The position numbers and the translations under genes were made by a program. A DNA stretch of 7,886 bases. Origin: Spirochaetales bacterium. GTDB taxonomy: Bacteria; Spirochaetota; Spirochaetia; SZUA-6; DRHE01. Below, piece after piece: positions 1-7,886 of this stretch. Each line of letters begins with the position of its first letter. Within the stretch, counting starts at the first letter, position 1. Under the pieces are notes generated by a model. It was not told where the DNA came from, searched no databases, and saw only the letters and a program-made list of their open reading frames with translations. Location: assembly GCA_016930895.1 (NCBI GenBank), contig JAFGFV010000046.1:1-7886 (forward strand), given 5' to 3'.

Positions 1-405
1 CGCCGCCGTACCCGCAAAGATGAGCAGCCCCGCAGGCAGGTCCCGCGCCCGCAAACGCCCCAGCCCGAAGCGCTGCCAGGGCGACGGGGCGCGGCGCGGA
101 GGCCTCCTGTCGGGCACCGCGTCCGGCCTTCGATCCGGCTGCCCTTGCCTTGCCGTCTCTCGGAGCCACAGGACATAGAGGAGCAGCGCAAGCTGCGGCA
201 GCGCAGCCAGAAGGGCCTCCGCCATGAAACGGCCGGGCGACTCGTTGGCTGCCTGCAGGTCCCCGCATCCGATCACGAGCCCCGGGAGATAGAAGGCCGC
301 GAACAGCAGCACCATCTCCAGCAGATTCTGCCTCACGATGGTACCCCGAGGCGAGCAGGAGGGCCGCTTGGGATCGGCAATAAAATCAGTTGATTCATTG
401 GCCAC
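1..405 (-). CDS. N-terminal part of a multi-pass membrane protein, probably a CPBP-family intramembrane metalloprotease (runs off the window)
   Basis: The reverse strand is open from a GTG at 405 to the window edge, giving 135 residues of an incomplete protein. A hydrophilic, proline-rich N-terminus is followed by one membrane segment at about residues 29-46 (VLLFAAFYLPGLVIG) and another at about 60-81. A strongly basic linker (about 82-121) ends in RFGLGRLRARDLPAG, and a third hydrophobic stretch then begins. This pattern, especially an F-G-L-x-R-x-R-x-x-D linker before a membrane segment, resembles CPBP (Abi/CAAX-type) proteases. The diagnostic EExxxR and FxxxH motifs would lie outside the window, so the family call is tentative. 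The start is uncertain. The GTG at 405 has no clear Shine-Dalgarno site and its first codons are AT-rich compared with the rest. A GTG at 336 (residue 24) is an alternative. It is divergent from the PilZ gene. Confidence 0.55.
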   Translation of the reverse strand, partial: MANESTDFIADPKRPSCSPRGTIVRQNLLEMVLLFAAFYLPGLVIGCGDLQAANESPGRFMAEALLAALPQLALLLYVLWLRETARQGQPDRRPDAVPDRRPPRRAPSPWQRFGLGRLRARDLPAGLLIFAGTAA

Positions 406-455
406 AATGATCGAAAAGGAAGTAGGAATGCGTGGGGATACTCGGAAGATATATC

Positions 456-465
456 ATAGCGCTAT
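456..465. repeat. 10-bp perfect palindrome in the CPBP/pilZ divergent gap
   Basis: ATAGCGCTAT reads identically on both strands and lies in the 73-base gap between the two divergent genes, 13 bases before the PilZ start codon. It overlaps TATCAT (452-457, plus) and TATGAT (458-453, minus), either of which could be a -10 element, but I found no convincing -35 at the right spacing for either. It might be an operator or chance. The PilZ start at 479 has no obvious Shine-Dalgarno sequence. Confidence 0.25.
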
Positions 466-478
466 TCGTTGCTGAACC

Positions 479-1492
479 ATGTGGATCATAGCCGTAGTCG
501 TCGCAGCGCTGCTCATCGGATTCTTCGTCTTTCTCAGGGTCGCCGGCCACGGCCGCTTCCCCTGGATCCAGTTCTACACCAAGGGCAAGGAGTCCGGTTT
601 CACCTTCCGCGAGATCGGGCTGCTGCGCAAGGTGGCGATCGAGACCAAGATCGACAACCCGACCTCGCTGTTCTGGTCGATCAAGCAGCTGGACCGCTCG
701 ATCAAGGAGATCATCATCAAGATCCGCGGTCGGGACATGCTCGATGACGCGGACTCCAACGACCTCCTGGGCAAGCTCTACGAGCTGCGCAAGCGCGTGG
801 AGTTCGATCTGCCCCGCTATCGCCTGGGTTTGCGCTCCACCCGGGAGATCATGGCCCGCCAGCGGGTCAGGGTCACGATTCCCGGCGCCGGGCCGTTCCA
901 GGCGATCGTCCTGGAGAACCCCCAGAGGTACCTGGCCATGTCGCGCCCCCAGGGACCGGGCCTGCCTCCCGGGTTCAAGTGGAGCGGACAGCAGATCGGC
1001 GTGCACTTCTGGCGGGCCGAAGACGCAGGCTACTTCTTCAAGAGCAAGGTCCTCAACGACTTCGTGGACCAGAACTACGAGATCATCCACGTCGCGCACA
1101 CCGACGACATCGCCCGCACCCAGAAGCGCCGCTCGATCCGGGTCAAGATGAACCACCCCGCGCAGGTCTATCCCCTGCGCTCGATCCAGGATGCCAACGA
1201 GCAGGAAGAGCGGGAACGCGGCTTGCGCTGCCGGCTCAAGGACCTGTCGGAAGACGGCGCAGCCCTCATGGTCGGCGGGCGCACCAAGGCGGGCGTGCCG
1301 ATCAAGCTGCAGTTCGAGCTGGCCGACTACCTGGTCGTCATGTGCGGTCTGGTCAAGGGCGTCAACTACGACCAGCAGAAGAACGTCTCCCTCCTGCACG
1401 TCCAGGCCGTCCCGCTGAGCGCCCGCACGCGCAACCACATCCTGACGTACGTGTACAACGTCTTCGGCGAACAGGAACGGGAACGGGCCTAG
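479..1492 (+). CDS. Membrane-anchored PilZ-domain protein, predicted c-di-GMP receptor
   Basis: The 337-residue product opens with one membrane segment (about residues 3-20, WIIAVVVAALLIGFFVFL). Next comes a mostly helical, charged region (about 30-115), then a YcgR-like beta-rich N-terminal PilZ-associated region (about 125-210). The C-terminal PilZ domain (about 213-327) contains both c-di-GMP contact motifs: R217-x-x-x-R221 (in QKRRSIRVKM) and D255-x-S257-x-x-G260 (in DLSEDGAAL). Proteins with these motifs bind c-di-GMP and often control motility or envelope behaviour; the target here is unknown. The FYTKGKESGFTFREI segment near residue 32 is a feature I associate with spirochaete PilZ proteins. 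The ATG at 479 is chosen because the membrane segment begins right after it, although no strong Shine-Dalgarno site is visible. The gene stands alone, divergent from the CPBP gene, and its stop codon overlaps that of pyk. Confidence 0.9.
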   Translation: MWIIAVVVAALLIGFFVFLRVAGHGRFPWIQFYTKGKESGFTFREIGLLRKVAIETKIDNPTSLFWSIKQLDRSIKEIIIKIRGRDMLDDADSNDLLGKLYELRKRVEFDLPRYRLGLRSTREIMARQRVRVTIPGAGPFQAIVLENPQRYLAMSRPQGPGLPPGFKWSGQQIGVHFWRAEDAGYFFKSKVLNDFVDQNYEIIHVAHTDDIARTQKRRSIRVKMNHPAQVYPLRSIQDANEQEERERGLRCRLKDLSEDGAALMVGGRTKAGVPIKLQFELADYLVVMCGLVKGVNYDQQKNVSLLHVQAVPLSARTRNHILTYVYNVFGEQERERA

Positions 1493-2928
1493 CCGCGGCC
1501 GACCACGTGCACCTTCATCACGTTGGTGCCCCCCGGTTCGAGCGCCGGGATCCCCGCCGATATGATCACCAGTTCCCCCTCGCAGGCCAAACCTTTCTCG
1601 ACGAGCAGCCGGTCGGTATCCGCGGCGGTCTGGAGGAAATCCTTTCGGAACTCCCGGAGCATCAGGGGGTGAACTCCCCACACCAGGGACAGCTGCTGCC
1701 AGGTGGAGCGCAGCGGGGTGACGGCCACGATCGGCACTGCGGGGCGGTACATGGAGATCAGCCGGGCGGTGCTGCCGGAGATCGTTTGCGCCACGATGCA
1801 GCGCGCCGAAAGGCGCTCAGCCGCATGGCAGACCGAGCGGGCCACCGCCAGCTGGGGTGAGTACCGCTGGTCTTCTTCCTCCGCCCTGACCCACCCCCTG
1901 TCGAGCCCGAGGTTGCGCTCCACGTGGTCGGCCACGCGCCGCATCATCTGGACGGATTCCACCGGGTACCCTCCCACCGCCGTCTCGCCGGAGAGCATGA
2001 TGGCGTCCGAGCCGTCGTAGATGGCGTTCGCCACGTCGGTGACTTCGGCGCGGGTGGGCAGGGGATTGCGGATCATGCTGTCGAGCATCTGGGTGGCCGT
2101 TACCGTGAGCACGCCCCGAAGGTTGGCCTTGCGGATGATCTGCTTCTGGTAGACCGGGATCATCGACAGGTCCCCCTCGATGCCCAGGTCCCCCCGGGCC
2201 ACCATCACCCCGTCGCTTACCTCCAGAATCGAATCGAGGTTGTCGATCGCCGTGGTCCGCTCGAGCTTGGCGATCAGCCGGGGAGGGTCCTCCACGCCGG
2301 CCACGAGCTCTCGCAGGTTGCGCATGTCTTCCGCCTCTTGGACGAAGGAGAGGGCCACGTAGTCCACTCCCTGGTCCAGGCCGAACTGGAGGTCCGCGAC
2401 GTCCTTGGCCGTGGGGGCCCGCTGAGTGAGCGTGAGATCCGGGAAGTTGACCCCCTTGTGCGAGCTCAGGAGGCCGCCGTGGACCACCGTGCACTCGAGA
2501 TGGTGCGCCGCCCTGGCCTCGACCCGCAGCTCGAGCATGCCGTCGTCGAGCAGGATCCGGGCTCCCACGGGCACGTCGGTCATGAGGTGGGGATAGTTGA
2601 CCGGAATGGCGCCGCGAAGCTCCGGGGCATCGGGAACCGGGGCCGGCGTCAGGCGCACGGTCTGACCCTCGGGCAGGCTCATTCCCTGGGGAGGCAGTTC
2701 GCCGACCCGGATCTTCGGGCCCCCGAGGTCCTGGAGAATGCCAATGCTGCGTCCGGTGTGCTCGCGCAGCGCCTTCAGGTTCTCGATGATCTGGAGGTTG
2801 GAGGCGTGCGAGCCGTGGGAGAAGTTGATGCGCGCCACATCCATGCCCTCTTCGGCCAACCGCTGCAGCTTCTCCGGGGTCGAGGACACGGGACCGATGG
2901 TGCACACAATCTTGGTCTTTCGTTGCAT
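1489..2928 (-). CDS. pyk: Pyruvate kinase, predicted potassium-independent type
   Basis: This 479-residue cytosolic enzyme converts phosphoenolpyruvate and ADP to pyruvate and ATP, the last step of glycolysis. The start MQRKTKIVCTIGP is the usual pyruvate kinase N-terminus and fixes the initiation codon. R33, N35, S37 (RINFSHGS) and D67 form the substrate and monovalent-cation site. K221 and E223 (AKLE), D247 (MVARGDLG) and TATQMLDSM supply catalytic and metal-binding groups. PTRAEVTDVANAIYDGSDAI and MLSGETAVGGYP are also canonical. The C-terminal regulatory domain is complete, and total length is normal for a bacterial enzyme. In the segment DLGGPKIRVG, K72 occupies the position of rabbit muscle Glu117, with Leu at the Thr113 position and Val at Thr120. 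That pattern marks potassium-independent enzymes. The stop overlaps the convergent PilZ gene, so no separate terminator fits between them. Confidence 0.97.
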   Translation of the reverse strand: MQRKTKIVCTIGPVSSTPEKLQRLAEEGMDVARINFSHGSHASNLQIIENLKALREHTGRSIGILQDLGGPKIRVGELPPQGMSLPEGQTVRLTPAPVPDAPELRGAIPVNYPHLMTDVPVGARILLDDGMLELRVEARAAHHLECTVVHGGLLSSHKGVNFPDLTLTQRAPTAKDVADLQFGLDQGVDYVALSFVQEAEDMRNLRELVAGVEDPPRLIAKLERTTAIDNLDSILEVSDGVMVARGDLGIEGDLSMIPVYQKQIIRKANLRGVLTVTATQMLDSMIRNPLPTRAEVTDVANAIYDGSDAIMLSGETAVGGYPVESVQMMRRVADHVERNLGLDRGWVRAEEEDQRYSPQLAVARSVCHAAERLSARCIVAQTISGSTARLISMYRPAVPIVAVTPLRSTWQQLSLVWGVHPLMLREFRKDFLQTAADTDRLLVEKGLACEGELVIISAGIPALEPGGTNVMKVHVVGRG

Positions 2929-2938
2929 AGAGGCTCTC

Positions 2939-2968
2939 AGTATAGCTCATCGTCGCTGCGGCGGCCAA
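2939..2968 (-). promoter_or_regulatory. Putative sigma70-type promoter for pyk
   Basis: Read on the minus strand, TTGGCC (2968-2963, 4 of 6 matches to TTGACA) is separated by 18 bases from TATACT (2944-2939, 5 of 6 matches to TATAAT). Only 10 bases separate the -10 from the pyk ATG, so initiation at the usual distance would leave a leader of about 4 bases. The GAGAG that could act as a ribosome site would then lie upstream of the transcript start. Either the mRNA is nearly leaderless or the real promoter is elsewhere. Confidence 0.45.
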
Positions 2969-3004
2969 GGGACCCGCGGCAAAGGCGAGGCGGTTCGCGA
3001 TTCA

Positions 3005-3033
3005 TTGATCTGGCGGGACACAGCCGCTACAAT
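3005..3033 (+). promoter_or_regulatory. Putative sigma70-type promoter for comEC-rsmA
   Basis: TTGATC (3005-3010) and TACAAT (3028-3033) are separated by exactly 17 bases, and the -10 matches consensus at 5 of 6 positions. Expected initiation near 3040 gives a leader of about 28 bases, containing GGGAG (3055-3059) 8 bases before the ATG at 3068. It lies in the same gap as the opposing pyk promoter, and the two -35 elements are about 36 bases apart. Confidence 0.6.
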
Positions 3034-3067
3034 AGCCGCAAGAGAATCCGCCACGGGAGTGGGACTG

Positions 3068-4654
3068 ATGGAGAGAGTGCGTCGGCCGCCCTCGCCGGCC
3101 CTGTTCCTGGCCGTGTCCCTGTTCGGCAGCACGCTTGTGAGCCTGAAGGCCGGGTATCTGCCGCTCCTTCCGCTCCTCGCGGCGCTGTGCACCGCCGCCG
3201 CAGCGGCCGCGTTGCTGCTGGCTCCGTCGTTCCTGCGAGGCTCCGGACGGAGGCTTGCGGCGGTGGCGCTGCTGTGCCTGGCCCTGGGCTGGGGAGCGGG
3301 CGCGGCCCGACTGTGGCCCCTGCTGCCCGTCCGGCTGGGAGGGGGTCGCGAGGCCTGCGCCGGCCAAGAGGCCGCCGCTCCTGGGACCCGAGCGGGACTC
3401 CTGCATTCCGGGCTTCCCCTGTCCCGGGTGAGGCGCTACCACGCCGTCCTGACCCGGGACAGCAGCGCTGCTCCCGGCGAGGCTGCCCGCTACGAGCTGC
3501 GGGTCACGCGCGTGGCCACCGCCGGCGGGGAGACTGTCGCCGCAGCGTCGGCCGCCGCCGTGCTGTGGGTCCCGCAGGGGCCCCGGCTGGCGGCGGGCCG
3601 ACGGATCGAGGTGGAGGGGAGGCTGAGACCCCAGGCCCCAGGGGGGCCACCCGCGCTGAGCTCGACGGTTTCCACGAAGGCGCTGACCGTCCACGGGTAC
3701 GCAAGCTCCCTGGCGGCACGCCGGGCGGGGCTCCTGGGGGCCGTCCGGTCGAGGCTGGGAGGGCTCGAGGCACCCGCTGCCGCCACCCTCGAGGCCTTGA
3801 TTCTCGGAAGCCGCGAGGAGATCTCGACGGAGCTGTACGAGGGGTTCCGCGCCAGCGGCAGCCTGCACCTCCTGGCCCTGTCGGGGCTGCATGCGGGAAT
3901 CCTGTACCTGCTGGTCACCCGCCTGCTCGCCTTCGTGCGCTCCCGGGGGTTGCGGAGCCTGGCGGCGGCCGCCGTGCTGGTGGCCTACCTGTTCGTGGCC
4001 GGGCCGCGCCCGTCCCTGTTCCGGGCGGTGGTCATGATTCTGGCTGCGGTCCTGGGGCGGCTGCTGGATCGGGATGCCCGGCCGCTCAACCTGCTGGCCC
4101 TGGCGGCGGCAGCCCTGATCCTGATCGATCCCGCCGCCGTGCTCACTCTTTCCTTCCAGCTCTCCTTCCTGGCAGTGGCCGGAATCCTGGTCCTGTCGCC
4201 GGGATTGCAGGGCTGGCTGGAAAAGGGGCTGCCGTCATTCGCTGCGGCTGCGCTGGCATACTCGACCGCGGCCCAGGCGGCTACGGCGCCGCTGCTGCTG
4301 GCTCGCTTCGGGGTGATTCACCCGATCGGGCTCCTCGCGGCCCTGCCGCTCATTCCCCTGGTCACCGTGTTCATTTGGGCCGGCCTGGGCTACCTGGCCC
4401 TGGCGGGGACCTTTCTGGGGGACGCGCTGGGGCTCGGGCTGCCCGGACTCCACGGGCTGCTGGAGGGGTGCGTGGGGCTCTGTGCCCGGGTACCGCCCCT
4501 GTTCGGTGCCGCTGCCGTGCCGCTGGTCGTCCTGCTCCTGGGAGTGTCGCTCCTGCCGTGCGTGTCTGGACGCCTGCCGGGAAGCCTGTCTGGAAACCTG
4601 CGTCGAGATCGGAGCGCCGTGCCGCAAGCGGTCTCGTATCCGGGGTCGCCGTGA
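3068..4654 (+). CDS. comEC: ComEC/Rec2-family DNA-uptake channel protein, short form without the C-terminal beta-lactamase-like domain
   Basis: ComEC forms the inner-membrane channel that brings single-stranded DNA into the cytoplasm during transformation. The 528-residue product has N-terminal membrane segments at about residues 10-50 and 62-86. A soluble region (about 120-210, ending RIEVEGRLRP and a beta-rich stretch) is consistent with the OB-fold-like DUF4131 domain. A polytopic Competence domain covers about 230-500. The hallmark HLLALSGLHAGI (S272-G273-L274-H275) is intact, followed by FVAGPRPSLFRAVVM and DPAAVLTLSFQLSFLAV, both typical of the family. Long ComEC proteins continue for some 200 residues as a metallo-beta-lactamase-like domain; here only about 30 polar residues follow the last membrane segment. 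The ATG at 3068 is supported by GGGAG 8 bases upstream and by the promoter; an in-frame GTG at 3059 is less likely. The stop overlaps the rsmA start. Confidence 0.88.
   Translation: MERVRRPPSPALFLAVSLFGSTLVSLKAGYLPLLPLLAALCTAAAAAALLLAPSFLRGSGRRLAAVALLCLALGWGAGAARLWPLLPVRLGGGREACAGQEAAAPGTRAGLLHSGLPLSRVRRYHAVLTRDSSAAPGEAARYELRVTRVATAGGETVAAASAAAVLWVPQGPRLAAGRRIEVEGRLRPQAPGGPPALSSTVSTKALTVHGYASSLAARRAGLLGAVRSRLGGLEAPAAATLEALILGSREEISTELYEGFRASGSLHLLALSGLHAGILYLLVTRLLAFVRSRGLRSLAAAAVLVAYLFVAGPRPSLFRAVVMILAAVLGRLLDRDARPLNLLALAAAALILIDPAAVLTLSFQLSFLAVAGILVLSPGLQGWLEKGLPSFAAAALAYSTAAQAATAPLLLARFGVIHPIGLLAALPLIPLVTVFIWAGLGYLALAGTFLGDALGLGLPGLHGLLEGCVGLCARVPPLFGAAAVPLVVLLLGVSLLPCVSGRLPGSLSGNLRRDRSAVPQAVSYPGSP
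4561..4608 (+). repeat. Degenerate 12-base tandem repeat at the 3' end of comEC
   Basis: Four successive 12-base units (from 4561, 4573, 4585 and 4597) resemble one another: CGTGTCTGGACG, CCTGCCGGGAAG, CCTGTCTGGAAA, CCTGCGTCGAGA. In the comEC frame they give a period-four peptide, VSGR-LPGS-LSGN-LRRD, after the last membrane segment. This is probably slippage in a weakly constrained tail. Confidence 0.45.
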
Positions 4655-5511
4655 ACTACGACTCGCCGCTGGAGATCCGCGCCACCCTCGAGAGGCTGGG
4701 GCTCAGCCCGCACAAGCGCTGGGGCCAGAACTTCCTCGTCAACCCGCATGCCCGCAGCCGGATCGTGGAGCTGCTGGAGGCGCAGCCTGAGGACACGGTC
4801 TGGGAGATCGGGCCGGGGCTGGGCTGCCTCACGGTCCTGCTGCTGCCCCGGGTGCGCTGCCTGGTCGGGTTCGAGGTGGACTGGGGGCTGGTCCGCTTCC
4901 TGGAGCGCGAGCTCGCGCCGCAGGGACCCTTGGAGCTGGTCCAGGGGGACGTGCTCAAGACCTGGAAACGGGAGCTGGACAGGAGGGGAGGGCCGCAGCG
5001 GCTCGTCGGGAACCTGCCGTATTCCTCGGCTTCGGCCCTGATCGCCGACCTCGCCGAGGCGGGCCTGCGCCCCCCCCGCATGGTGTTCACGGTCCAGCGG
5101 GAGCTGGCCCAGCGCATGACCGCCGTCCCGGGCGAGAAGGCCTATTCGTCCTTCTCCGTGCTCGTGCAGGTCGGCTACCGCGTCCAGTCGCGCATGGAGC
5201 TGAACCCCGGCTCCTTCTATCCGCCCCCGCAGGTGAGCTCCTCCGTGGTGGTGCTCAGTCCGCAGCTCGCGATCCGGCAGCCCGCCGACCGGGCCCTGTT
5301 CCTGCGCCTGGTCCGGGCCCTGTTCGTCTCCAGGCGCAAGACCCTTTGGAACAATCTCGCCGCCGGCGGGTTCGCGGCAGGCGGGCGGACAGAGCTACTG
5401 CGGGAGCTTCTGGCCCTGGAGGGGATCGATCCCGGCCTGCGCAGCGAGACCCTGGAGCCGGAGCAGTTCGTGCGGTTGGCCGACCGCCTCGCCGCTCCTA
5501 CAGGATCTTGA
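4651..5511 (+). CDS. rsmA: 16S rRNA (adenine(1518)-N6/adenine(1519)-N6)-dimethyltransferase RsmA
   Basis: RsmA (KsgA) uses S-adenosylmethionine to dimethylate two adjacent adenines near the 3' end of 16S rRNA, a late checkpoint in small-subunit assembly. Its absence gives kasugamycin resistance. The 286-residue product has the family's order of motifs: KRWGQNFLV (22-30), the SAM-binding EIGPGLGCLT (52-61), acidic E75/D77 in GFEVD, D100 in QGDVL, and the catalytic N121-L-P-Y124. VQRELAQRM and NPGSFYPPPQVSSSVV follow, then a C-terminal helical domain with FVSRRKTLWNNL. After NLPY the sequence is SSAS where many homologues have NISS or similar. The GTG at 4651 overlaps the comEC stop as GTGA, indicating translational coupling; no strong Shine-Dalgarno site of its own is visible. 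The 3' end overlaps convergent dapA by 14 bases. Confidence 0.95.
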   Translation: MNYDSPLEIRATLERLGLSPHKRWGQNFLVNPHARSRIVELLEAQPEDTVWEIGPGLGCLTVLLLPRVRCLVGFEVDWGLVRFLERELAPQGPLELVQGDVLKTWKRELDRRGGPQRLVGNLPYSSASALIADLAEAGLRPPRMVFTVQRELAQRMTAVPGEKAYSSFSVLVQVGYRVQSRMELNPGSFYPPPQVSSSVVVLSPQLAIRQPADRALFLRLVRALFVSRRKTLWNNLAAGGFAAGGRTELLRELLALEGIDPGLRSETLEPEQFVRLADRLAAPTGS

Positions 5512-6373
5512 GGCTTTCGAGCACCGCCCTGAGCTTCTTGCGGCTGTCCTCGGAAGGGGCACACATCGGCAGGCGGTAGGACTCGGTCAGCATCCCCTTC
5601 ATGGCCATGGCCGCCTTGATCGGGATCGGGTTGGTTTCGATGAAGATGGCCTTGAACAGGGGCAGGAGCTCGTAGTGCAGGGTGCGTGCGCGCTCCCAGT
5701 CTCCGTCGAGCGCCGCGTGGGTCAACGCGCGCATTCGGTCCGGCACGATGTTGCTGGCCACGGAGATGACCCCGCGGCCTCCCAGGCCCATGAGCGGGAA
5801 GGTCAGATTGTCGTCCCCGGAGAGGACGTCGAAATCCCCTGGTTTCTCGGCGATCAGCTCCATCATCTGGGCGATGCTCCCGCTCGCCTCCTTGACGCCC
5901 ACGATGTTGGGGTGCTGGGCCAGGCGGAGCATGACGGGGTTCTCGATGTTCTTGCCCGTGCGGCCGGGGATGTTGTACACGATCATCGGCAGGTCCACCG
6001 CGTCGGCAATGGCCGTGAAGTGGCGGTAGAACCCTTCTGCGGTAGGCTTGTTGTAGTAGGGGGCGACCTGGAGGCTGGCGTCCACCCCGATCCGCTTCGC
6101 GAGCTCGGTCAGATGGATGGCCTTGTCCGTGCAGTTGGAGCCCGTCCCGGCGATGACCGGCACGCGTCCTCCCGCCTGATCGACGACGATCCGGATCACC
6201 GCTTCGGTCTCCTCCGGTCCCAGCGTCGGGCTCTCCCCGGTGGTGCCCACGGGCACGAGGCCGTCGATCCCGTGCTCGATCTGGAAATCCACCAGCTTGC
6301 GCAGAGATGATTCGTCCAGGCTCCCGTCCTCCTTGAACGGGGTCACCAGCGCGGTCAGTGCTCCCTGGAACAT
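5498..6373 (-). CDS. dapA: 4-hydroxy-tetrahydrodipicolinate synthase, predicted lysine-insensitive
   Basis: DapA condenses pyruvate with aspartate semialdehyde, the first committed step to diaminopimelate (cell wall) and lysine. The 291-residue TIM-barrel protein aligns with E. coli numbering without gaps through the active site. T44 and T45 (GTTGES), Y107 (PYYNKP), Y133 (YNIPGRT), R138 and the Schiff-base lysine K161 (GVKEASGS) are all present. Residues that bind inhibitory lysine in E. coli DapA are only partly kept: S48, N80 and Y106 are present, but Ala49 is Pro, His53 is Pro, His56 is Thr and Glu84 is Lys. Loss of His56 and Glu84 predicts weak or absent lysine inhibition. The start is supported by AAGGAGG 6 bases upstream. 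It is divergent from dapB, with which it shares the pathway. Confidence 0.97.
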   Translation of the reverse strand: MFQGALTALVTPFKEDGSLDESSLRKLVDFQIEHGIDGLVPVGTTGESPTLGPEETEAVIRIVVDQAGGRVPVIAGTGSNCTDKAIHLTELAKRIGVDASLQVAPYYNKPTAEGFYRHFTAIADAVDLPMIVYNIPGRTGKNIENPVMLRLAQHPNIVGVKEASGSIAQMMELIAEKPGDFDVLSGDDNLTFPLMGLGGRGVISVASNIVPDRMRALTHAALDGDWERARTLHYELLPLFKAIFIETNPIPIKAAMAMKGMLTESYRLPMCAPSEDSRKKLRAVLESLKIL

Positions 6374-6379
6374 TACGGC

Positions 6380-6386
6380 CCTCCTT
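6380..6386 (-). promoter_or_regulatory. Strong Shine-Dalgarno site of dapA
   Basis: On the minus strand AAGGAGG ends 6 bases before the dapA ATG. It is the strongest ribosome binding site at a gene start in the window and fixes that start. Confidence 0.85.
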
Positions 6387-6412
6387 GTCGGCGTGGTGTG
6401 CGGAATCCGTCA

Positions 6413-6441
6413 ATCATAACGGCCGAGAGGCGATCGTTCAA
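6413..6441 (-). promoter_or_regulatory. Putative sigma70-type promoter for dapA
   Basis: On the minus strand TTGAAC (6441-6436) and TATGAT (6418-6413) are 17 bases apart, and the -10 matches consensus at 5 of 6 positions. Expected initiation near 6406 leaves a leader of about 33 bases containing AAGGAGG, too short for a lysine riboswitch or T-box. Confidence 0.6.
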
Positions 6442-6453
6442 GGCCCGCGCGTC

Positions 6454-6489
6454 GGCCCCGCCGCTGCGCGGCCCCGCCGCTGGGCGGCC
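6454..6489. repeat. 16-bp tandem repeat between the dapA and dapB promoters
   Basis: GGCCCCGCCGCTGCGC (6454-6469) is followed directly by GGCCCCGCCGCTGGGC (6470-6485), 15 of 16 identical, then by GGCC (6486-6489), which starts a third unit. The repeat fills most of the 48 bases between the two divergent -35 elements and ends at the base before the dapB -35. It could be a double operator bound on the same helix face with a 1.5-turn offset, or a simple GC-rich duplication. Confidence 0.6.
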
Positions 6490-6518
6490 TTGTCCGCTCA
6501 GAATGCATTTGCTACACT
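6490..6518 (+). promoter_or_regulatory. Putative sigma70-type promoter for dapB-tyrA, extended -10
   Basis: TTGTCC (6490-6495) and TACACT (6513-6518) are 17 bases apart. The -10 is preceded by TGC, an extended -10 (TGn) motif. Initiation near 6525 gives a leader of about 27 bases, which favours the ATG at 6552 over the in-frame TTG at 6525. Confidence 0.6.
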
Positions 6519-6540
6519 CGAGCCTTGGATCTTGGAGACG

Positions 6541-6545
6541 AGGAG
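6541..6545 (+). promoter_or_regulatory. Shine-Dalgarno site that decides the dapB start
   Basis: AGGAG lies 6 bases before the ATG at 6552. An in-frame ATG at 6546 directly abuts it and would have to use the weaker GGAG at 6534-6537. The 6552 start also gives MVRIVIHGCSGKMG, the usual compact DapB N-terminus. Confidence 0.65.
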
Positions 6546-6551
6546 ATGCTC

Positions 6552-7772
6552 ATGGTCAGGATCGTCATTCACGGTTGCAGCGGCAAGATGGGCAGGGTGG
6601 TCGCCGCCGCGGCGGCGGCGAGCCCGGACATCGAGATAGCGGCGGGGATCGACGTGGCGGCTCCCGAGACCCCGCCGGATTTCCCGGTGTACTCCGACCT
6701 GCTGGCCTGCGATGTCCAGGCGGATGTGGTCATCGATTTCTCCTCGCCCAAGGCCCTGGGCGGGCTGCTCGAAGCCGCGGCGGCCCGGGGGCTCGCCGTG
6801 GTGGTCGCGACGACCGGCCTGGCCCCCGAGGACCAGGAGCGGCTTGCCGAAGCGGCGCAGCGGATTGCGGTTTTCAGATCCGCCAACATGTCCCTGGGGA
6901 TCAATCTCCTGTCGGAGCTCGCGCAGAAGGCAGCCTCGGTGTTCGGCGATCGCTTCGACATCGAGATCGTGGAGCGCCACCACAACCAGAAAAAGGACGC
7001 CCCGTCAGGAACGGCGCTCCTCCTGGCGGACGCCATCAACGAAGTGTTCCTCGGGAACAAGCGCTATCTCTACGGCCGCCACGGGCGCAACGAGCAACGG
7101 GAGGTTCCGGACATCGGGATCCACGCCGTGCGGGCCGGAACGATCGTCGGCGAGCACGAAGTGATCTTCGCGGGCAAGGACGAGATCGTCGAGCTGCGCC
7201 ACAGCGCCTCCTCGCGGCAGATCTTTGCCCTTGGGGCCCTGCAGGCCGCTCGCTTTCTCAAGGGCAAGCCGCCGGGGCTGTACAGCATGAAGGAGATGAT
7301 CACCGCGGAGAGCGCAGTCACCCGCCTGTACACGACCACCGAGGAGGCCCTGGTGTCGCTCTACGGGGTGCCGTGGGACCCGGTGAGGATCGCCGAGGTG
7401 TTCCGGCGGATCGGCGAGGCGGGAGTGTGGGTGGACATGATCAGCCAGACCGCGCCCGTGGAAGGCTCGGTCAGCCTCTCCTTCACCTTGTACCGCACGG
7501 AGCTGCAGCGGGTGGGGTCCCTGCTGGAATCCCTCCGGGCGGACATGCCCGCGCTTCGCGCGCAGGTTCGCGAAGACATCGCCAAGATCGCCGTGGAGGG
7601 TCCCGGGATGGAAACCCAGTCGGGGGTCGCGGCGCGGGTGTTCGGCGTCCTCGCCGCCGAGGAGATCCAGATCCTGTCGGTGAGCACCTCGGAGACCAAG
7701 ATCACCCTGATCACCCAGGAGAAGGACGAAGGGAAAGCGGTCCAGTCCATCAAGGCCGCCTTCTCCATCTAA
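6552..7772 (+). CDS. dapB: 4-hydroxy-tetrahydrodipicolinate reductase fused to an aspartokinase-type ACT-ACT regulatory module
   Basis: The 406-residue product is much longer than ordinary DapB (about 220-270). Residues 1-250 form a full DapB, which reduces the DapA product with NAD(P)H. They include the dinucleotide-binding HGCSGKMG (7-14), D34 after the second strand (suggesting NADH use), VATTGL, SANMSLGINLL, and ERHHNQKKDAPSGTA with catalytic H143 and K147. RAGTIVGEHEVIF (194-206) and a C-terminal GLYSMKEMI follow. After a short linker, residues about 266-335 and 342-406 match the two ACT domains of aspartokinase (LysC), with GVPWDP, AGVWVDMISQ, GMETQSGVAARVF and the effector-site-like STSETKI (378-384). 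No kinase sequence is present. The reading frame is continuous and both halves look intact, so this is a true fusion, not a broken lysC. The effector is inferred to be lysine and/or threonine. A tyrA-like gene follows after 10 bases. Confidence 0.95.
   Translation: MVRIVIHGCSGKMGRVVAAAAAASPDIEIAAGIDVAAPETPPDFPVYSDLLACDVQADVVIDFSSPKALGGLLEAAAARGLAVVVATTGLAPEDQERLAEAAQRIAVFRSANMSLGINLLSELAQKAASVFGDRFDIEIVERHHNQKKDAPSGTALLLADAINEVFLGNKRYLYGRHGRNEQREVPDIGIHAVRAGTIVGEHEVIFAGKDEIVELRHSASSRQIFALGALQAARFLKGKPPGLYSMKEMITAESAVTRLYTTTEEALVSLYGVPWDPVRIAEVFRRIGEAGVWVDMISQTAPVEGSVSLSFTLYRTELQRVGSLLESLRADMPALRAQVREDIAKIAVEGPGMETQSGVAARVFGVLAAEEIQILSVSTSETKITLITQEKDEGKAVQSIKAAFSI
7342..7355 (+). promoter_or_regulatory. 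Possible internal translation start for a free ACT-ACT polypeptide
   Basis: AGGAGG (7342-7347) is followed after 5 bases by an in-frame GTG (7353-7355, V268), just where the first ACT domain begins. Initiation here would give a 139-residue ACT-ACT protein. Bacillus and Corynebacterium lysC make a comparable beta subunit from an internal start. The same bases encode Glu-Glu-Ala, so chance is a serious alternative. Confidence 0.25.
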
Positions 7773-7782
7773 GCCTGCTCCC

Positions 7783-7886
7783 ATGTCCGGTTCGGTGCAG
7801 GAAATCGGCGTCTACGGCCTGGGCCGTTTCGGCTCTTTCTACGCGGGCATCCTGCGGGGGATCGCCCCGGTGCTCGCCTACTCCCG
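7783..7886 (+). CDS. tyrA: N-terminal fragment of a probable prephenate dehydrogenase (runs off the window)
   Basis: Only 34 codons are in the window. After a short lead-in the protein has one beta strand and a dinucleotide-binding loop, IGVYGLGRFGSF, with the GxGxxG pattern (G12, G14, G17). The second strand ends VLAYS and is cut by the window edge. This resembles TyrA proteins that oxidise prephenate in tyrosine synthesis. Other Rossmann reductases such as ProC or ketopantoate reductase cannot be excluded from so little sequence. The second strand ends in Ser with no acidic residue visible there, which hints at NADP use but is weak evidence. The ATG lies 10 bases after the dapB stop with only a poor ribosome binding site, so the gene is probably co-transcribed with dapB. 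Confidence 0.6.
   Translation, partial: MSGSVQEIGVYGLGRFGSFYAGILRGIAPVLAYS

Follow-up and report, generated by a model that had tools for sequence, protein, structure and literature searches.

What is a regulatory module of the aspartokinase type doing on DapB, the 4-hydroxy-tetrahydrodipicolinate reductase that serves lysine and cell-wall synthesis in bacteria? The question is raised by the fused gene dapB-ACT-ACT in a 7,886-nucleotide stretch of DNA from a Spirochaetales bacterium (GenBank assembly GCA_016930895.1, contig JAFGFV010000046.1, positions 1 to 7,886 of the forward strand; hereafter, the window). In the synthesis of lysine and diaminopimelate, the steps generally considered feedback controlled are those of aspartokinase and DapA (PMC10464499). 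The answer favored here is that the activity of this DapB is probably set by its ACT-ACT module, which would sense a small molecule. The gene and its parts are as follows.

6540..6545, plus strand: GAGGAG, likely ribosome-binding site, judged by its spacing (6 nucleotides 5' of the ATG at 6552)
6552..7772, plus strand: fused gene dapB-ACT-ACT, ATG to TAA, 406 residues plus TAA
6552..7301, plus strand: DapB catalytic part, residues 1-250 (Pfam, NCBIfam)
7302..7337, plus strand: residues 251-262, comprising the linker and the first regulatory-region strand (from the predicted secondary structure)
7344..7559, plus strand: ACT1, approximately residues 265-336, with the MISQTAP motif (domain search, motif table, model)
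7560..7769, plus strand: ACT2, approximately residues 337-406, with the GPGMETQSG and STSETKI motifs (domain search, motif table, model)

A previous reading, made from the sequence only, had described an intact DapB that continues in frame into an aspartokinase-like ACT-ACT tail with no kinase, and the family scans bear this out. In the 406-residue protein, Pfam places DapB_N at residues 2-113 (E = 1.2e-26) and DapB_C at residues 116-250 (E = 1.2e-45), and the NCBIfam model TIGR00036 scores 217.7 bits against a cut-off of 122, matching over positions 1-269 of its 270, which makes the protein a member of the DapB family. The tail (residues 266-406) scores as ACT: ACT_9 matches in two stretches, the best at residues 346-404 (E = 6.6e-19), ACT_7 and ACT match as well, and the NCBIfam aspartate kinase models align from about residue 245, through their regulatory part only. 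Two ACT domains are present, one nested in the other, with a strand at residues 258-262 preceding ACT1 in the secondary structure of the predicted model. The fused protein gives no Pfam match to the amino-acid-kinase catalytic domain up to an E value of 1 and does not qualify as an aspartokinase. All the motifs named in the sequence-only reading are found, namely, HGCSGKMG at residues 7-14, ERHHNQKKDAPSGTA at 141-155, GVPWDP at 272-277, VDMISQ at 294-299, GMETQSGVAARVF at 352-364, and STSETKI at 378-384. The GxxGxxG (residues 8-14) and HH..K..PSGT (residues 143-154) signatures, which we take to be the nucleotide-binding and catalytic motifs, are nearly invariant across 178 fused sequences (G8, G11, G14, H143, H144, K147, and S152-G153-T154 are each conserved in at least 98.5%). 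Translation might also start at an alternative in-frame ATG at position 6546.

The DapB-ACT-ACT architecture is real, conserved, and widespread. A homologue search passed 7,992 proteins, and DapB is combined with ACT domains in all of the best 120 of them (the window protein included), on which these figures rest. Fusions in an uninterrupted frame were found in 58 distinct genomes in total, including 5 of 26 in the order of genome G001, the one nearest to the window, 23 of 30 in the order of G002, 6 of 61 in the order of G004, and 22 of 61 in the order of G006; 7 of the 80 homologous loci surveyed are fused. The reading frames of the fusions were checked; in G004 and G252, the contig stops short of the 3' end of the gene. 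Among 120 sampled genomes from the phylum of G001, the fusion is seen in G001 alone, so that it is patchy within that phylum. The taxa involved are Spirochaetota, Clostridia, and, judging by one protein name, Desulfobulbaceae. No description of this architecture was found: no open-access paper retrieved describes an ACT module on DapB or a free ACT protein encoded next to dapB, and none of the 42 sequences listed in a PDB search matches both parts. Residues 1-250 are like DapB proteins (TIGR00036; Escherichia coli 1arz and 1dih; Vibrio vulnificus 5us6) in score, motifs, and fold, and the solved DapB chains found align to this front part only. The tail resembles the regulatory region or beta subunit of alpha2beta2 aspartokinases from Pseudomonas aeruginosa (5yei), Corynebacterium glutamicum (2dtj, 3ab2), Thermus (2dt9), and Mycobacterium tuberculosis (3s1t), but comes without a kinase and with altered pocket positions.

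An allosterically controlled reductase, one of the two options in the sequence-only reading, is predicted here as the best interpretation of an aspartokinase-type ACT pair on DapB. An intact DapB, a nearly fixed linker, and a complete regulatory region with ACT1 nested in ACT2 occur together, and DapB sits at the place of the kinase. The distance from M246 at the end of DapB to A266 at the start of ACT1 is 19 residues in 173 of the 178 fused proteins (18 in two and 20 in three); thus, the linker hardly varies. Of 65 rows, 27 have an extension of 156 residues after DapB; the others have 147 to 159, except for two rows from a single gene, cut by the contig, with 124. The variation falls mainly between the two ACT halves. 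Conservation of at least 90% across the 178 sequences is seen at 22 positions of the tail, including S298, Q299, G350, G352, M353, Q356, G358, and T379-S380-E381-T382-K383. The ratio of nonsynonymous to synonymous substitution rates (dN/dS) of the ACT part is 0.034 to 0.116 in 7 of the 10 fused-gene pairs with usable rates and 0.173, 0.275, and 0.583 in the other 3; for the DapB part, the same 10 pairs give 0.048 to 0.232 (one further pair, L242/L247, has no usable ACT dS). In the mechanism that we propose, two ACT domains would pair between subunits, and a metabolite produced by the aspartate/diaminopimelate pathway would bind at the interface of the paired domains, with lysine as the first candidate and meso-diaminopimelate as the second. 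The change induced by the ligand would then reach the DapB hinge region via the short linker, and the reduction of the DapA product would be altered by the module.

The same kind of module is also encoded separately. At 12 of the 80 surveyed loci, all with dapA preceding dapB, the latter is followed on its own strand by an ACT-ACT frame of approximately 150 to 190 codons. A free ACT-ACT frame downstream of dapB is also found in 47 of 58 genomes from the order of G012, a further Clostridia order; reading frames were checked for 33 of these 47, and in 7 genomes of the order, stop codons separate the dapB and ACT frames. The finding of a separate module gene immediately behind dapB in this additional order is new here. 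Two of the 47 split genomes have a gap of 0.4 to 0.7 kb between the genes (G187, L203 2318-2979, and G198, L204 1867-2254). An AAGGAGG of its own precedes the ATG of the ACT gene in Ruminiclostridium cellobioparum termitidis (L016), and a search with the product of this gene returned 280 proteins with E values of up to 0.001 among 371 candidates. Of 120 listed proteins, 26 are named in the database, 16 of them as aspartokinase or aspartate kinase, 9 as ACT domain protein, and 1 as both; the kinase-named ones are proteins of about 156 residues (e.g., L016 10794-11261, P0134, and P0174). No kinase domain was detected in the one free ACT-ACT protein scanned.

The free proteins of Ruminiclostridium and its relatives, also of about 156 residues, have the same double ACT module and adjoin dapB in the genomes examined, but they are encoded by a separate gene and have K or R for E354 and I, L, or T for Q356 in the ACT2 loop, so that the ligand may differ. 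A module that is fused in some lineages and a neighboring gene in others is, as a rule, the sign of a working partner, and the separate gene directly after dapB points to DapB as that partner. In the split lineages, the free protein would act as a regulatory subunit of DapB. For the more general claim, we see an even chance: that in many Clostridia and Spirochaetota DapB is feedback controlled by a transferable kinase-less ACT-ACT module, present as a fused tail or a separate subunit, and that the free proteins, several of them named "aspartokinase," are DapB regulators that sense a lysine-pathway product through a pocket unlike the classical one. A regulated DapB, if true, would be a further control point, overlooked so far, in the lysine pathway, which is used in amino-acid production and is a drug target. 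With DapB-ACT, the movement of sensor modules between enzymes of one pathway could also be tested directly, and the naming of the family of small free ACT-ACT proteins would be corrected.

Binding of lysine and/or threonine as in aspartokinases, which had been suggested from the motifs, is weakened by the alignment. The positions compared were G277, A279, D274, Q298, T361, S381, and E382 of the C. glutamicum aspartokinase, presumably contacts of its threonine/lysine pocket; the motif table omits four long rows (L006, L009, L010, and L011) and one duplicate kinase row. G277 and A279 are replaced in both fused and free modules, with I at the A279 position in 88% of the fused rows and 73% of the free rows. 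D274 is replaced by Y, L, F, or other residues in the fused rows and mostly by N in the free rows, N being found also in 38% of the classical kinases compared. Q298 is kept in 96% of the fused and 75% of the free rows, and S381 and E382 are kept in most rows of both kinds, whereas the T361 position has A in the modules, a residue shared by 92% of the classical kinases in the comparison. At position 356, the fused modules have Q and most kinases H or N. Mutations at 279, 298, 361, 381, and 382 are tied to feedback inhibition of aspartokinase in PMC10464499. With pocket positions replaced, lysine or threonine binding cannot be carried over from aspartokinase.

These replaced ligand-loop positions are one of several points that weigh against an effector-controlled DapB. 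In addition, the module is dispensable in the order of G002, where 5 of 30 genomes have DapB without it, and in the order of G006, with 26 to 27 such rows; the fused tail of L292 has lost its ACT score; the L244/L246 pair is evolving rapidly; a clade uniting the fused and free modules is neither shown nor rejected (approximately unbiased [AU] test, p-AU 0.61); and module-less genomes in the order of G002 have an excess of alpha2beta2-type kinase, described below, which fits a kinase-linked role too. The replaced loop and the existence of related DapBs lacking the module would also suit an ACT pair that has lost ligand binding and serves as an oligomerization or stability element. We consider this unlikely, since the loop and interface residues that are at least 90% conserved over the 178 fused sequences would hardly be needed by a scaffold, and the separate-protein version adjoins dapB.

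Judging from the DapB tree, the ACT part is plainly detachable, and the tree fits gain or loss alike. The fused label requires 15 changes, of which well-supported branches force at least 8, and DapBs that lack the module are nested inside fused groups. Short rows, known duplicates, and roughly two thirds of the rows without a module from the 80 loci are missing from the tree, and four genomes appear in it as identical double rows. The DapB of G150, 58% identical to the window DapB, ends at residue 252 and is followed by a different gene. The L292 gene (2019-3245, in G329) encodes DapB with a 148-residue tail, apparently a fused module that is drifting.

The second option in the sequence-only reading was that the ACT pair docks onto a separate aspartokinase as a loose beta subunit and couples the two enzymes. 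The classical beta subunit of alpha2beta2 aspartokinase is such an ACT-ACT module, and the module under study is closest, by sequence and structure, to regulatory regions of this type; besides, an aspartokinase scores over the family cut-off in all 25 genomes searched, of which 19 have the module in fused or free form. The alpha2beta2 form itself is described in PMC4691045. Nevertheless, we find docking quite improbable, because the matching kinase is clearly present in only 7 of the 58 fusion genomes (557 to 606 bits) and in 19 split genomes out of 56, with none in the other 37, because most kinases in the 25 genomes align across the whole model and thus already include a regulatory part, and because the free module adjoins dapB. 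A kinase was counted as alpha2beta2 type if it scored more than 440 bits with NF005155; the curated cut-off of 346 bits would give 11 of 58. The 4 additional genomes, at 346 to 355 bits, were set aside without individual scans because the kinase of L106, which scores 645 bits with PRK08210 (in our understanding, the model of the DapG-type aspartokinase), reaches 346.1 bits with NF005155. G003 and G338, with partial NF005155 matches only (228 and 206 bits), were counted as lacking the kinase. It is thus absent from 47 to 51 of the 58 fusion genomes; genome completeness is not given, and some of the absences, in fusion and split genomes alike, may be due to gaps.

The orders compared disagree on a link between the module and this kinase. 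In the order of G002, the kinase is found in 5 of 5 module-less versus 7 of 23 fused genomes (Fisher p = 0.008, uncorrected for kinship). The order of G012 shows the opposite direction, with 0 of the 9 module-less genomes examined (of 11) versus 12 of 47 split ones (p = 0.18). Neither group has the kinase in the order of G006 (0 of 27 genomes with no module or a degenerate one; 0 of 22 fused ones). A general link was therefore rejected, and general docking on alpha2beta2-type aspartokinase appears unlikely. Finally, an assembly or frameshift artefact joining dapB to a lysC fragment, a caveat of the sequence-only reading, is practically impossible and is refuted by the same uninterrupted join in 58 distinct genomes and at least 119 other protein clusters, with fixed spacing.

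As for the origin of the module, a group of aspartokinases, K1, from Geosporobacter and "Clostridium jeddahtimonense" (L094, L095, and L070/L088) resemble the fused and free modules in their ACT regions: all have TTSE and, in place of A279, an I, and K1 shares ISQTAP with the fused modules. Unlike the DapB modules, the K1 ACT regions are still attached to a kinase. In an unrooted tree, the K1 ACT regions and the modules fall on one side of a branch, with the classical kinases on the other (Shimodaira-Hasegawa-like approximate likelihood ratio test [SH-aLRT] support of 100); the AU tests do not settle the branching order of the fused, free, and K1 modules. The ACT trees exclude kinase regions of <60 bits or <110 residues, so that kinases of other classes are absent from them, and roughly half of the rows for free modules, together with 11 that are long or duplicates, are missing from the second tree. 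The K1 aspartokinase gene of L070 lies in a lysine-type operon (3435-12702; names assigned by eye), lysA-lysC-dapF-deacetylase-asd-dapA-dapB-dapD/H-aminotransferase-like, upstream of asd-dapA-dapB.

The window also contains dapA and several other genes.

479-1489: PilZ-domain protein
1492-2928, minus strand: pyruvate kinase
3068-4651: ComEC-type competence protein
4651-5508: KsgA
5498..6373, minus strand: dapA (4-hydroxy-tetrahydrodipicolinate synthase; Pfam, NCBIfam), divergent from dapB-ACT
7783..7886, plus strand: start of the next gene, TyrA-like by analogy; 104 bases, cut by the window end

The first four are ordinary genes according to the family scans. The divergent arrangement of dapA and dapB-ACT recurs in L001, L132, L133, and L134. 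According to PMC5109050, His or Glu at position 56 of E. coli DapA goes with lysine sensitivity and Lys or Arg with insensitivity; the window DapA has T56, along with P49, P53, and K84. Next to a fused dapB, H56 is found in 0 of 56 DapA rows and E56 in 2, and next to a split dapB, H56 is found in 46 of 46 rows (some genomes count twice). DapA proteins of module-less relatives mostly have K or R at this position (5 of 5 in the order of G002 and 19 of 26 in the order of G006). A test on independent pairs for association between the module and DapA lysine sensitivity was not significant (7 pairs, about 2 of which differ); a trade between the two is not shown, and the pattern is read as a lineage trait. 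No lysine riboswitch was found at the gathering threshold within the window. Pfam gives no notable match for the 34 residues of the next gene that lie in the window. In L001 (11224-11973) and L212 (3135-3947), dapB-ACT is immediately followed by a gene for a TyrA-like prephenate dehydrogenase with PDH_N, and the start IGVYGLGRFG or LGVYGLGRFG is common to these two genes and the one in the window.
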